NCBI GenBank assembly: GCA_011033025.1
Contig: WFMF01000024.1
Location: forward strand, 620,001 to 684,000
DNA from: Beroe forskalii
Taxonomy: Eukaryota; Ctenophora; Nuda; Beroida; Beroidae
Direction: 5' to 3'
Length of the DNA stretch: 64,000 nt
The notes under the pieces are model-generated. The model had not been told where the DNA came from and did no database searches. It was given only the letters and a program-made list of their open reading frames with translations. Both the position numbers and the translations under genes were made by a program. The number at the start of each line of letters is the position of its first letter. Position 1 is the stretch's first letter. Of this stretch, positions 30,618 to 42,600 are shown in pieces.

Positions 30618-33600
30618 ATGTCAAACATTTTGTGCTGTGGTAGAGCTTCAGATGGACAGCTTGGAGAAGTTGAGAATGGGTGTCTTCTCAAACTGAATCA
30701 GCTAAATATTAATGGTTTGTGATATTGAGTTTTACAATTCACATCTAGATGATTGCCAAATCAATCTGCAAATATTTATTTCAAACAATCTGCACCGATC
30801 TGCACATAACTTATTTCTGTGCATGTAATTCAAAAGTAATACTAATAACAACTTTAACCAAAACAACAGCAAATATATTTATTACCTCTGTCGATTCCTG
30901 TCATTGGCTGTTACAGCTGTTGGAATAGAAGTGAAACCATCTAAATAAAAAGGGTTTTACTTCACTGCTTCGCTCTTTATCATCAATTTCTCATCATATG
31001 CCCCAGATGTAGCATCGGAAAATATCAGAAACATCTGCGGTAGCAAGAGGAATACTCTAATCCTCACACGAGATGGCCTGGTCTATACGGCAGGAAGAGC
31101 TGAGGTGCTGGGTAGAACTGGCAACCACACTCCCCCGGCCATCATTTCATCCCTTGAGGTTTTCACAGTCAGTAAGTCAGAGCTTCTAGTCGAATCCATT
31201 GGATCTTGTTCTTTTTTTCCCTCCCCATTGGCCTTTTTGTGAATACAAAAAGGCAAATGAGAGGGTTGGCAGAGATCGTGGTTTTGGAAGGTGAGAAATA
31301 GGATATGTGTATATGAGGTTCAGATTTACAATACAACTACTGTAATTTCTGGAAAGTGCCCGGATTGCTCCTTTATAATATCAGTCGCGAAAATGTCCCT
31401 CCCTCCCTCCGTCCCTCCGTCCCCATATCACATAAATCCTCAAAATAACGAATTTCTTCACTCATGGAACTGTCGGTTGTCAAAAGTATAAATCTTATAG
31501 GTTGCCGCAAATTCCTAAATTATGATAAGTTCTAAATTTAATTAGGCTGTTGAAGAATCCGTTCCTTAAAAAGTTAAAATCTTAGGTGTGAGTTGGGTGG
31601 TGGATTGGAGGAAAAGGCTTCGGTTTTGCACTAGGTTTAGTACCAAACTGAATAACTATTAGACTTTCTGCTGGATTCGACTAAGTTTGAGAAATACTAT
31701 TCGCTGTGAAAGACGAATATTGTTTTTTGGAACAAGAGACAGCATTGAAACAGAAAAGAAAAGCACGAAATTTGAAAATCAGATACTCAGATAAAAAGTG
31801 ATATCAACTTAGTGTAAACACTAAACATTCAAGAAAATGCATGGCGTGAATAAACGGTGACAAAATTTGATGCGAAACGTAAACCAATTCAACAAAATGG
31901 GGCGAAATCTACAATGAACTGAGTAAAACAACGAACGCGCGCGCAAGGATTTTAGAAGAAATGGCACGTGCCAATTTGTGTTCTCGGTGGTCGCGCGCAG
32001 CACGCGCATCGGAACAATATTTATACTCTTATTACTTTATAACGACTGCGTTTTGTATTATCTTATTATGATGCTAAGGTTACATGAAGCACCGCGGGGG
32101 AGGGAAATTAAGCGCCTGCACACGGCCTACGGGAACAACAATAATTGTGTCGGTGCAGCCGCAATTCTTGTTTGAAATTATGATTTCAGAACTGAGCCAG
32201 TACTTATATGCTATCTTTTACATTATTAATCTTATTCAGAAGATTATGAGCGGAGATTTGTTTACTTGTTTGAATCATTGCTATGCTCTTGACTTGGTGA
32301 CTATACCTATTCATCATTGCTTTTCGTTTAGGTATAGGAAGATAGAACACCATGTACCAACTAAAACGATAAAGTTTTATGTTCTTACGTACAATCTTCA
32401 GGGGAACATCCCGATCGTTTTACTTGCTACTTGGTATTTCACTCCCCGTTTTCCCGGAAACTTGTAGAGCACTCTCTTGCACTTAGTTCCAGAACTTATT
32501 AGGAAAACAGAACACATCATGTTTTTATTGATTGATGCGTTCATAGGGCACATCAATTTATCTTTCCATTTCAGAGTCTGTAGATTTCGGAGAGGACCAT
32601 GCAGTTGGTGTGACTAGTTCAGGAGCGGTGTGCTCCTGGGGGTTCAATTCTCAGGGGCAGTGTGGCCACGCTCCACCTCACTTTGTAGACAAACCCACCC
32701 TTCTCAGACCTATTGCAGGTATGGGTTATAATCTATTGCTCCCGTCCTGAAATATTCGACTCAGGTCTGTATCAATACATCAATAGGAATAGGCTGGTAT
32801 GGAATTAGCCTGTTAAGACCTGAATGGATATAAATTAGTCCGATCTGCTACCATGTTCTACCAGGTGCTCGAATGAAGTCAATTCCGTGATCAGGTTTCA
32901 AAGTGACGCACATATCCTGCAGGTGTCAAAGTGACTCACATATCCTGTGGAGCTCGGCACACCTTGGCGCTGTGTGACGGAGCGGAGGTGTTCAGTTGGG
33001 GCGATGCTACGTACGGGCAGCTGGGCTACATGACCAACCTCAAACTCAACCACAACCCCACCCGAGTCAGCGTGTTGGAAGGGGCGCCTGTGATTCAGGT
33101 TAATATGACTCCACGTGATTTAGGTATATCTTGTACTGGGGGTGTATGGGGCCCAGCTGGTAGTGTATGGGGCCAATGTATTTTAATTTGTTAATTGAAG
33201 CTTGTGTATACCGTATATATGGTGCACTTTATTGCTCTGAATAATTAGTTTCTCCGGTTTTTTGTAAATGATAATTGAGAAGCATTGATTATTTTGATAA
33301 AATTAATAATGTACCTACCTCATTAATAGTGTATTAATTATCAATGAAACCCTTCCGCGATCAAGATTATTGGGACTTCATGATGCATGCATCGTACATT
33401 TATACAAATTAACATTATATTCAGCAGCAAAACACCGCTGCAGTCTTCCTTTTAAGGCTGTGCTAAACTAGCATTCATTAAAAAGCTGGAATAAAATTGT
33501 ATAATGTATAAGGCTGACCACAATGGAACATTGGATCACGTCTTTACCTCAGTCTCCTTTGTCACCTATCCAGATGGAACACCTTTTCAGGTGGCAGCAG

Positions 33601-39600: not shown

Positions 39601-42600
39601 ACTGTAGACCCTGAGGTTTGTTCACTGTCGACTCTGAGGTTTGTTCACTGTCGACCCTGCCTGAGGTTTGTTCACTGTCGACCCTGAGGTATATTCACTG
39701 TAGACCCTGAGGTTTGTAGGTTTGTTCACTGTCGACCCTGAGGTTTGTTCACAGTCGACCCTGAGGTTTTTTCACTGCCGACCCTGAGGTTTGTTCACTG
39801 TAGGCCCTGATGTTTGTTCACTGTCGACCCTGAGGTATATTCACTGTAGACCCTGAGGTAGGAGGGTGATCAAGTAAGCAACACATAGATTTGTAGACAG
39901 CAAAATCCTCGGTTCACACTGCATTCCTTAGATCACACCGCATAGCTTCATTGATTCTACATTCCCTATTACTCTTCTTCTTTATTTTCAGTCGCGTTTC
40001 ATCTGGTTCTCCCAGTTTAGTTTTGAGCACAACAGCAACTACCATTTGATAGGATTACTATGTGGTCTCGCTATCTATAACTCGACTATCGGTATGTTAT
40101 CACTAAAATGTGCTGGATTTGTTTGATTTGATTGTCCCAAATCATCGTTAGATTCTTAAAATGTTCCATTTTGCAGTTAATTGATTCACTGACTGCCCCC
40201 AACCTAACTAACGTTTCAGTTGACATCAACTTCCCTCCTGCTTTGTACAAGAAGCTGCTCCGTAAGCCCGTGACGCTCAGTGACTTTGCAAAGTTATTCC
40301 CCACCCAAGGGAACACCCTGCGCCAGCTCCTGGCTTACAACGAGCCTGATTTTGAGGATGTCATGTGCCTCACTTTCTCAGTCACCAGGTTCGAGGGTTG
40401 CCTGATTTTGAGGGTTCGGCACAGTAACTGTACTGTCTGTAAGGAGATTGCAAGGACGGCCCTTGTAGTTATTGCCAATAAAAGTTTGCGTGTTTTATTG
40501 AGCTAGATTTGCAGAAATGTGAAGAACGGATAGTGCAAATTGCGACTGAAATATTTTTGCCGTTACAAATTCCGATAATATTTTAACCGACTAAAATATG
40601 AAATACGTACGTTTTGGTACGTTTTGGTTAGTTTGACTGGGCGTGCTCAGGACATCTGCGTCGTGCGCGTCTCCTTCCAGCTCAGCAATGAGTTGTTGTT
40701 CACAGCTGTGTACCCCGGAACAGGAGGTGTATCCGGGAACTGCTCAAGGAACTTGCCCAAACCGATCTTGAAGCTTTCAAGTGAGATCAGTTGAGAGACA
40801 TCAGATGGCAAGATATTCCAAAGCTGAGCTGCTCTAGCACCAAATGAACTGTCGTAGTCACTACGCACAGATAGTTGGGCTTTGGTGTTTATCTGAGGGA
40901 TGAGTGCCTTGATCCCAAGTCGAGGATGGTGCTTAAACTGCATTTCGACATCGTTTGGAGCGTGGCTGTGGATTATCTTCCAAACTTGAATGATGCAGTA
41001 TCTTTCTCTCCGGCGTTGAAGTGACATAAGGTTCAGCTTCTTGAGGCGGTCCCAATAACTCAAATCTATGAGTCCAGTTACCCTTCGGACGAAGCAGCGT
41101 TGGACGTTCTCTAATTTCTTTATGTCAGTTATCTTGGAAGGGTTCCAAACCGGACAGCAGTATTCAAGCCTGGAGCGGACCATTGACTTGTAGAGAGTGA
41201 GCATCACGAGGGGAGAACGATCACAGAAGGCGCTGAGAACCCAAGAGGACATTTTCCTAGCTCCTTGAACAGTTTGTTCAATATGAGGCGACCATGATCT
41301 ATCACTTGAAACAAGGACCCCCAAATCTTTAGCAGTGCCCATAACTTCGATAACGTGTCCTTTGGGAGTTTTGTATTCTACATTCTCCGGATAGAAAGGA
41401 AGTTGCCTTAGAAGGTAGGAACTGTTAAGAGGATAGCTCAGCAGTTGGAATTTGTCTTCATGTAGCTCCATGTTATTCATGGTTGACCATTGTATTACCC
41501 TACACAGATCTTCCTGTATTTTGCAGTACATTCCAGACCAAGCACCCTTGATATCAATTTGGTGTCGTCTGCAAAACATAGTCCCTTGCAATTTTGAGTG
41601 TCGGAAGTAGGTCGTTTATGTATAAAGGAACAGTATGGGTCCTAGCACTGTACCTTGTGGGACTCCACTTACCACAGGTTGGGCTGATGACAAAACCCCT
41701 TCCACCTGAACAGTTTGGGTTCGGTTTGTGAGGAACTCTTTAATCCAGGACAAGATTTTTCCACCGATGCCGTACCGCTTGAGCTTTTCCAACAGTACTT
41801 GATGGTCCACTTTGTCGAAAGCCTTCGAATAATCGAGGTAAATCACATCTACTTCATCATTGCTATTTAGGCAGCTGTATATGAACTCGATGTGGCTAAG
41901 CAGCTGGGTCAAGCAACTGCGTTTTTTCCTAAACCCATGTTGGTTGTTGCTGATGAAGTTTGATTCCTCGAGATATTCCACAAGCCTGTCTCTCATAACT
42001 CTCTCAAAGGTCTTAATGATGTGAGAAGTCAGGGATACTGGCCTATAATTGGCAGGATCAGTACGGTCATCCTTCTTGTAGACAGGTGTTATGAACTGAG
42101 CCTTAAGAACAGGAGGAATGAATCCATTGGCGAGGGAATCCGACCAAATAATATGTAGAGGGACTGCCAATTCGTCTTTGCATGATGTGAGAATTCTGGC
42201 TGGGACATCGTCATCAGGACAAGCTGAATAAGGGTCAAGTTCCTTTAGGGCTGATATGATGTCTTCTTTTGAAAAGCTAAAGTCTAAGAAGGAGGTGCTC
42301 ATTCCTTGAGGAAGACCATCCGACTGGAGGCATGCACTGATGTCAGCCTTAGCAGGGTCACTGAAATATCCAGAGTTTTGGTATCGTACCACCACGCGGA
42401 ATCAAATTACAATTCACCTTTTTTGTACGTTCGGCGCGAACGTCTTCTGACAAATTTGTGGTTGCGGGCGCGCTCTGAACGCAATTAAGCAAACAATTAA
42501 AGAATTATGTTTTTCTAGTACATTGTGTGGGTCACGTTTCCACAGTTGGGCAATTTAGCTGTTAGCAGATTTTAACCCTTGCTTATTTAATATACCTAAC

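Follow-up and report, generated by a model that had tools for sequence, protein, structure and literature searches.

Four exon–intron borders of a single gene in the ctenophore Beroe forskalii lie inside tandem repeats made of copies of those borders. The gene encodes a HERC4-like ubiquitin ligase (HERC below) and lies on the forward strand of a 64-kilobase (kb) stretch, positions 620001–684000 of contig WFMF01000024.1 in assembly GCA_011033025.1, which we call the window and whose coordinates we use unless another stretch is named; the genome comprises 216 megabases (Mb) in 1134 contigs. We confirmed that four minisatellite-like arrays cross homology-supported splice junctions of this gene, three at acceptors and one at a donor. 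They are probably four ‘mirages’, a term taken from amphioxus, that arose by random tandem duplication in short introns and have been tolerated through use of the exon-side copy.

HERC spans 30618–43952 in about 21 exons, as judged from its reading frame, its match to Mnemiopsis leidyi and the matches of its upstream exons. Nineteen exons were modelled from sequence at 32575–43952; all 18 introns between them are GT–AG, and together they give a single open frame of 923 amino acids. Two extra 5′ exons, at about 30618–30719 and 31006–31173, match Mnemiopsis residues 1–34 and 33–88. The 923-residue product finds its best match in Mnemiopsis ACHWQZ_G008179 (75% identity over the full query), and the second-ranking named animal proteins reach about 40%. 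Pfam assigns RCC1-like and HECT domains to it, and among solved structures the HECT part scores best against UBE3A and the RCC1 part against HERC2. The Mnemiopsis alignment is gapless at the four junctions that concern us here (LLRPIAG/VKV, PVIQ/VAAGG, YITS/LFGRV and VDPE/SRF, where the slash marks the junction), and its sole gap, of 7 residues, is away from them. The frame and this homology bear out the claim of an earlier first-pass annotation that three arrays and one simple duplication span exon–intron borders of the gene.

Tandem Repeats Finder (TRF) reports repeats at 32892–32947 (28 base pairs (bp), 2.0 copies), 33579–34967 (45 bp, 31.8 copies), 36723–37243 (39 bp, 13.4 copies) and 39481–39859 (23 bp and multiples). 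Read together with the exon model, these define four arrays. Array A (32892–32947), two copies of a 28-bp unit, holds the acceptor of exon 2 (32923–33098), with the real border at 32922/32923 in the second copy and a decoy at 32894/32895. Array B (33579–34967) has 32 copies at the acceptor of exon 3 (34946–35083), with the real border at 34945/34946 in the last copy, preceded by 31 decoys. Array C (36691–37243) repeats a unit of about 39 bp 14 times at the acceptor of exon 8 (37224–37421); its real border, 37223/37224, is again in the last copy, and the first two of its 13 decoy-bearing copies (36691 and 36756) are degenerate. Array D (39481–39859), 15 copies of 23 bp, holds the donor of exon 13 (39291–39500), with the real border at 39500/39501 in the first copy, followed by 14 decoys. 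The units of 39 and 23 bp given in the first-pass annotation hold for C and D, and its 43 bp for B stands for a range of 34 to 52 bp in which 27 of 31 intervals measure 43–45 bp; its end point of 39862 is the far side of array D, and the true donor is at 39500.

In all four cases, as had been proposed, the real border is found in the terminal copy on the exon side. Because it comes last in the acceptor arrays A, B and C and first in the donor array D, the array is on the intron side every time. The far splice sites of the four introns (32718/32719, 33098/33099, 36515/36516 and 39991/39992) lie outside the arrays. We considered the last copy of D as the real donor and ruled it out: the array contains stops, and it is the first copy that yields the conserved frame. 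A de novo exon caller regains all four exons at the ends given above, although it was trained partly on HERC, and a spliced-profile alignment regains 39291–39500 with splice matrices built from HERC introns, so that neither is fully independent of the model.

The arrays supply 59 extra copies of splice sites (1 in A, 31 in B, 13 in C and 14 in D), 58 of which keep their AG or GT, in agreement with the expectation of dozens of additional good sites. Every B decoy carries CTTTTCAG before the border and G after it, AG is kept in 12 of the 13 C decoys, and GT in all 14 of D. Sites were scored by weight matrices built on 46 introns from other HECT genes. By this measure, 27 of the 31 B decoys reached at least the score of the genuine acceptor (11.9; the mean of the 46 real acceptors is 9.06). 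The same was true for 2 of 13 decoys in C (genuine acceptor 7.8) and 7 of 14 in D (genuine donor 7.2; mean of the 46 real donors 7.31). Use of any decoy either shifts the frame or brings in a stop with the added sequence (1/1 in A, 31/31 in B, 13/13 in C and 14/14 in D). As all 59 break a frame that is itself conserved, the terminal copy would be the one used in functional mRNA; if protein is made, the exon-side copy should have to be used.

The strength of many decoys raises the thought that the repeats are functional, selected for stronger exon recognition or for regulation, for example through unproductive splicing to decoys. The high-scoring B decoys, the near-complete retention of AG and GT and the invariant core columns of B described below are what such selection would favour. 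Against this, only small numbers of C decoys and half of those in D match the genuine site, not one of the 59 decoys spares the frame, and in the sample described below junction arrays do not exceed chance. Copies within an array also share ancestry, so the kept cores represent few independent events. We regard functional splice-site arrays as quite improbable.

The arrays have local origins. Core words of 20–22 bases from the four units were searched through the whole genome with at most one mismatch (the search skips very common words). They matched 2, 29, 12 and 10 times for A, B, C and D, every time within their own array; outside it there were 0 matches in 216 Mb, and reversed-pattern controls gave 0. 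Each array unit is found at a single locus in the assembly, and by eye the four appear unrelated in sequence, which upholds the earlier suggestion that no single repeat had spread. Origin from a dispersed repeat or transposon was ruled out by the same empty search. These results support the conclusion that the gene’s own border was the local source of each array.

Whether such arrays are more frequent than chance is a matter of the rest of the genome. We surveyed 20 stretches of 10 kb round HECT matches, picked regardless of repeats, and 5 random stretches of 10 kb, in total 250 kb or 0.12% of the genome. Introns of the sampled HECT genes came from the spliced-profile aligner, which was first tried on HERC; spliced alignment at a low intron penalty was dropped for its many false short introns. 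The exon caller returned 16 of 19 HERC exons exactly at its better setting and 12 of 19 at the other, with HERC in its training set, and the survey used a penalty slightly above these two scored settings. Stretches in which the domain is intronless (L024–L028) entered the exon-caller surveys only. For the null, each array was collapsed to one unit and placed uniformly within its intron. The setting is a genome rich in minisatellites, with 140 merged TRF arrays of period at least 10 in 200 kb of its sequence.

With paired exons, the 20 stretches yielded 92 introns and 52 arrays, 5 of them crossing a junction against 3.87 expected (p 0.34). Across all 25 stretches, counted per junction at exon cut-offs of 7, 9, 11 and 14, the crossing arrays among those beside predicted junctions numbered 10 of 121, 9 of 115, 9 of 107 and 6 of 110, against 8.01, 7.29, 6.55 and 6.02 expected. 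A laxer TRF cut-off gave 11 of 147, 10 of 142, 9 of 130 and 6 of 136, against 8.17, 7.48, 6.68 and 6.13, and p ran from 0.18 to 0.60 over these four exon and two TRF cut-offs. Variant cut-offs of 11, 16 and 22 gave 9 of 114, 6 of 117 and 3 of 100, against 6.55, 5.7 and 3.54. The 5 random stretches held no crossing array among 16, 22 and 21 arrays (0.17–0.33 expected), so nearly all the information comes from the HECT-gene stretches. In the rest of the window, none of the 6–10 arrays beside predicted junctions crosses one. Junction-crossing arrays in the sampled 250 kb are thus about as frequent as random placement would make them, with which a modest excess is compatible. The first-pass annotation had expected them to exceed chance and had seen one process acting on different junctions; outside HERC, crossing arrays are near the level of random placement, and in the 250 kb sampled a process that singles out junctions finds no support.

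In HERC itself, 4 of 5 or 4 of 6 arrays cross a junction against 0.7–0.9 expected (p 0.0003–0.0023, uncorrected), and at the variant cut-offs of 11, 16 and 22 the counts are 4 of 5, 3 of 3 and 4 of 5 (p 0.0005, 0.0099 and <0.0001, likewise uncorrected). HERC was reported because of this very pattern, so these p values are uncorrected for selection. An earlier null, superseded by the one-unit null, had allowed an array to reach into an exon by as much as a unit or even further; L023 (one exon), the 3′ copy of HERC and any intron next to an exon of under 25 nucleotides were excluded from it. Under it, 14 other HECT genes had 3 of 35 arrays crossing against 7.0 expected, and HERC 4 of 6 against 1.0 (p 0.002).

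The contrast between HERC and the other stretches bears on the idea that duplication is directed to borders, that is, that a process tied to splicing or transcription, such as pausing or R-loops at splice sites or nascent-RNA-templated repair, favours borders in at least some genes. The HERC count (4 of 5 arrays against 0.72 expected, p 0.0005 before any correction) and three crossing arrays in another stretch, L018, whose best match is UBR5, speak for it. The other 25 stretches show no significant excess at any cut-off, nor do the 20 with paired exons, and the 14 other HECT genes fell below expectation under the coarser null. Acceptors and donors are both affected, moreover, and the units look unrelated by eye. 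We consider border-directed duplication unlikely. The broader proposition, that in some ctenophore genes, HERC and UBR5 among them, a process linked to splicing or transcription steers duplication to junctions and so gathers several unrelated arrays there, and that splicing reliably chooses the exon-side copy among tens of near-equals, is in our judgement just as doubtful.

The crossing arrays outside HERC differ in how their junctions are fixed. In L015, a HECT gene, an exon ending at 3564 is followed by 11 copies of the donor junction, the real one included, and the same intron ends in 2 copies of the acceptor at 5205/5206, with a unit unrelated to that on the donor side; this case is supported by homology. 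In L018, the acceptor array at 5445/5446 is fixed by the HECT profile, and the array at 4968/4969 is placed by the exon caller. The third, at 812/813, comes from the laxest exon cut-off of the caller together with a weak UBR5 match (E value 0.036) over repeated residues. A donor array at 1004 on the minus strand of L021 lies in a stretch that aligns gapless to HUWE1, and at the donor array at 2569 in L020 a HECT match (E value 2e-05) spans most of the exon but not its end. Crossings in L012, L013 and L028 come from the exon caller alone.

Several sampled stretches hold repeats of other kinds. A 13-bp pyrimidine-rich array of 88 copies at 5121–6229 of L016 stops 4 bases short of the acceptor at 6233/6234 and does not cross it; from this position it seems to serve as the pyrimidine tract of that intron. 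One HECT gene appears on two contigs (L012 6910–7667, minus strand, and L014 5791–5796), 94–97% identical on either side of a gap where one copy has about 750 bp with intron arrays of 146- and 108-bp units and the other does not. The two are either alleles or recent duplicates that differ by an array. At HECT genes in L022 and L025, two contigs share 1.4 and 2.6 kb at 99.6% and 98% identity, reflecting either recent duplication or uncollapsed alleles.

We infer the mechanism of duplication, the exclusive use of exon-side copies and the tolerance of the HERC arrays as follows. In a minisatellite-rich genome with short introns, slippage or unequal exchange of the ordinary kind would have duplicated in tandem short segments that by chance straddled a border, and later growth would have turned three of these four duplications into arrays. 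Any duplication over a border would leave a complete copy of that border against the exon. The splicing machinery would keep to this copy, probably through exon definition, so the array would behave as intron and be tolerated. The intron-side copies, free of coding constraint, could then drift and change in number. A real border in the terminal unit is expected for any crossing array beside a conserved exon and is therefore no separate evidence for a dedicated process. Since the sample shows no clear depletion and no clear enrichment of crossing arrays, good decoys appear to cost little in this genome, as would fit exon definition with exons 138–210 bp long.

Several observations weigh against random duplication as the whole account. 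HERC is a local cluster of junction arrays above expectation, and the UBR5-like L018, with three crossing arrays, makes clustering by gene possible. In array B, twelve adjacent columns round the AG/GT border are invariant in the 31 decoys and other columns vary, which is not obviously expected from neutral decay; the figure is descriptive, and 9 of the 12 columns are the anchor by which units were cut, yet every unit had that anchor. The HERC cluster and the invariance in B could each be chance or a weak sign of something linked to borders. The comparison with chance also comes from a small sample, with 20 of its 25 stretches centred on HECT matches and many of its junctions placed by the exon caller alone.

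The window holds further repeats and copies near HERC. Close matches to the gene are confined to the main locus and a 3′ copy at 57.2–59.6 kb. This partial second copy (57160–59554) runs from within exon 14 to beyond the last exon, is 81–86% identical to pieces of 40054–44349, and lacks about 1.7 kb present in intron 15 of the main gene (40619–42362). Just upstream of HERC, an uninterrupted frame of 225 codons (29172–29846) resembles, by eye, the TMEM205 family. Two long 20-bp minisatellites lie outside the gene, at 25297–27674 (about 119 copies) and 47506–48732 (about 62 copies). Two inverted pairs of satellite arrays lie side by side, each with a forward arm followed by its reverse complement: the pair at 49564–51773 has a unit of about 168 bp and arms that are 87% identical, the pair at 51880–55213 a unit of about 369 bp and 94% identity.

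An acceptor present 32-fold, its copies nearly alike in sequence and in score, amounts to a natural experiment in spliceosomal choice among equals, and it comes with a sharp prediction: protein should be made only from the exon-side copy. Junction arrays are also a trap for gene annotation, because their inner copies look like good splice sites. The HERC arrays take mirages beyond the lancelets and into a ctenophore. Work on Adh, reportedly by Cañestro and colleagues, is cited in both lancelet reports (PMC3087553, PMC3902484).

The first-pass annotation knew of no named class for such repeats; there is one. ‘Mirages’, as two reports describe them, are minisatellite-like tandem duplications of exon–intron boundaries in amphioxus Adh3, the globins BflGb6 and BflGb9, troponin C and PGBD5 (PMC3087553, PMC3902484). 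The same reports state that those of Adh3, the globins and troponin C leave splicing undisturbed, that Adh3 mirages are unstable, even somatically, that units measure 10–72 bp in Adh3, 60 and 108 in PGBD5 and 150–160 in the globins, and that the BflGb6 mirage has 6 and 3 copies in two haplotypes (PMC3087553, PMC3902484). Among the matches listed from the open-licence PMC literature, none described such arrays in ctenophores in its title or the start of its abstract. The amphioxus and HERC arrays are alike in lying at 5′ or 3′ borders, in often having AG or GT in their units and in keeping the authentic border beside the exon, in affecting more than one border of a gene (as in PGBD5), and in having units of tens of bp. 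They differ in that HERC belongs to a ctenophore and not a cephalochordate, reaches 32, 14 and 15 copies against the 6 and 3 of BflGb6, and is known here from one assembly sequence.

Two further systems are related in part. In human segmental-duplication genes, internal tandem repeats at exon–intron boundaries are reported to alter splicing and form novel introns (PMC2812944). They share with HERC the minisatellite form, units of about 30 bp and, for some, a position at exon–intron borders; in HERC, by contrast, homology implies removal of the entire array by splicing. The Rogers model of intron gain by tandem genomic duplication, described for potato RdRp (PMC4974935), likewise starts from tandem duplication of a segment bearing splice signals, and a similar proposal was made from amphioxus mirages (PMC3087553). 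On this precedent, the HERC arrays might be intron gain in progress, in which duplication of an AGGT-bearing segment makes new introns. That process needs both intron ends from the repeat, whereas each HERC array touches one end only and no new intron is needed to account for it, and we hold this explanation to be very improbable. The HERC arrays are best classed as probable mirages, with many copies and in a phylum other than that of the lancelets.

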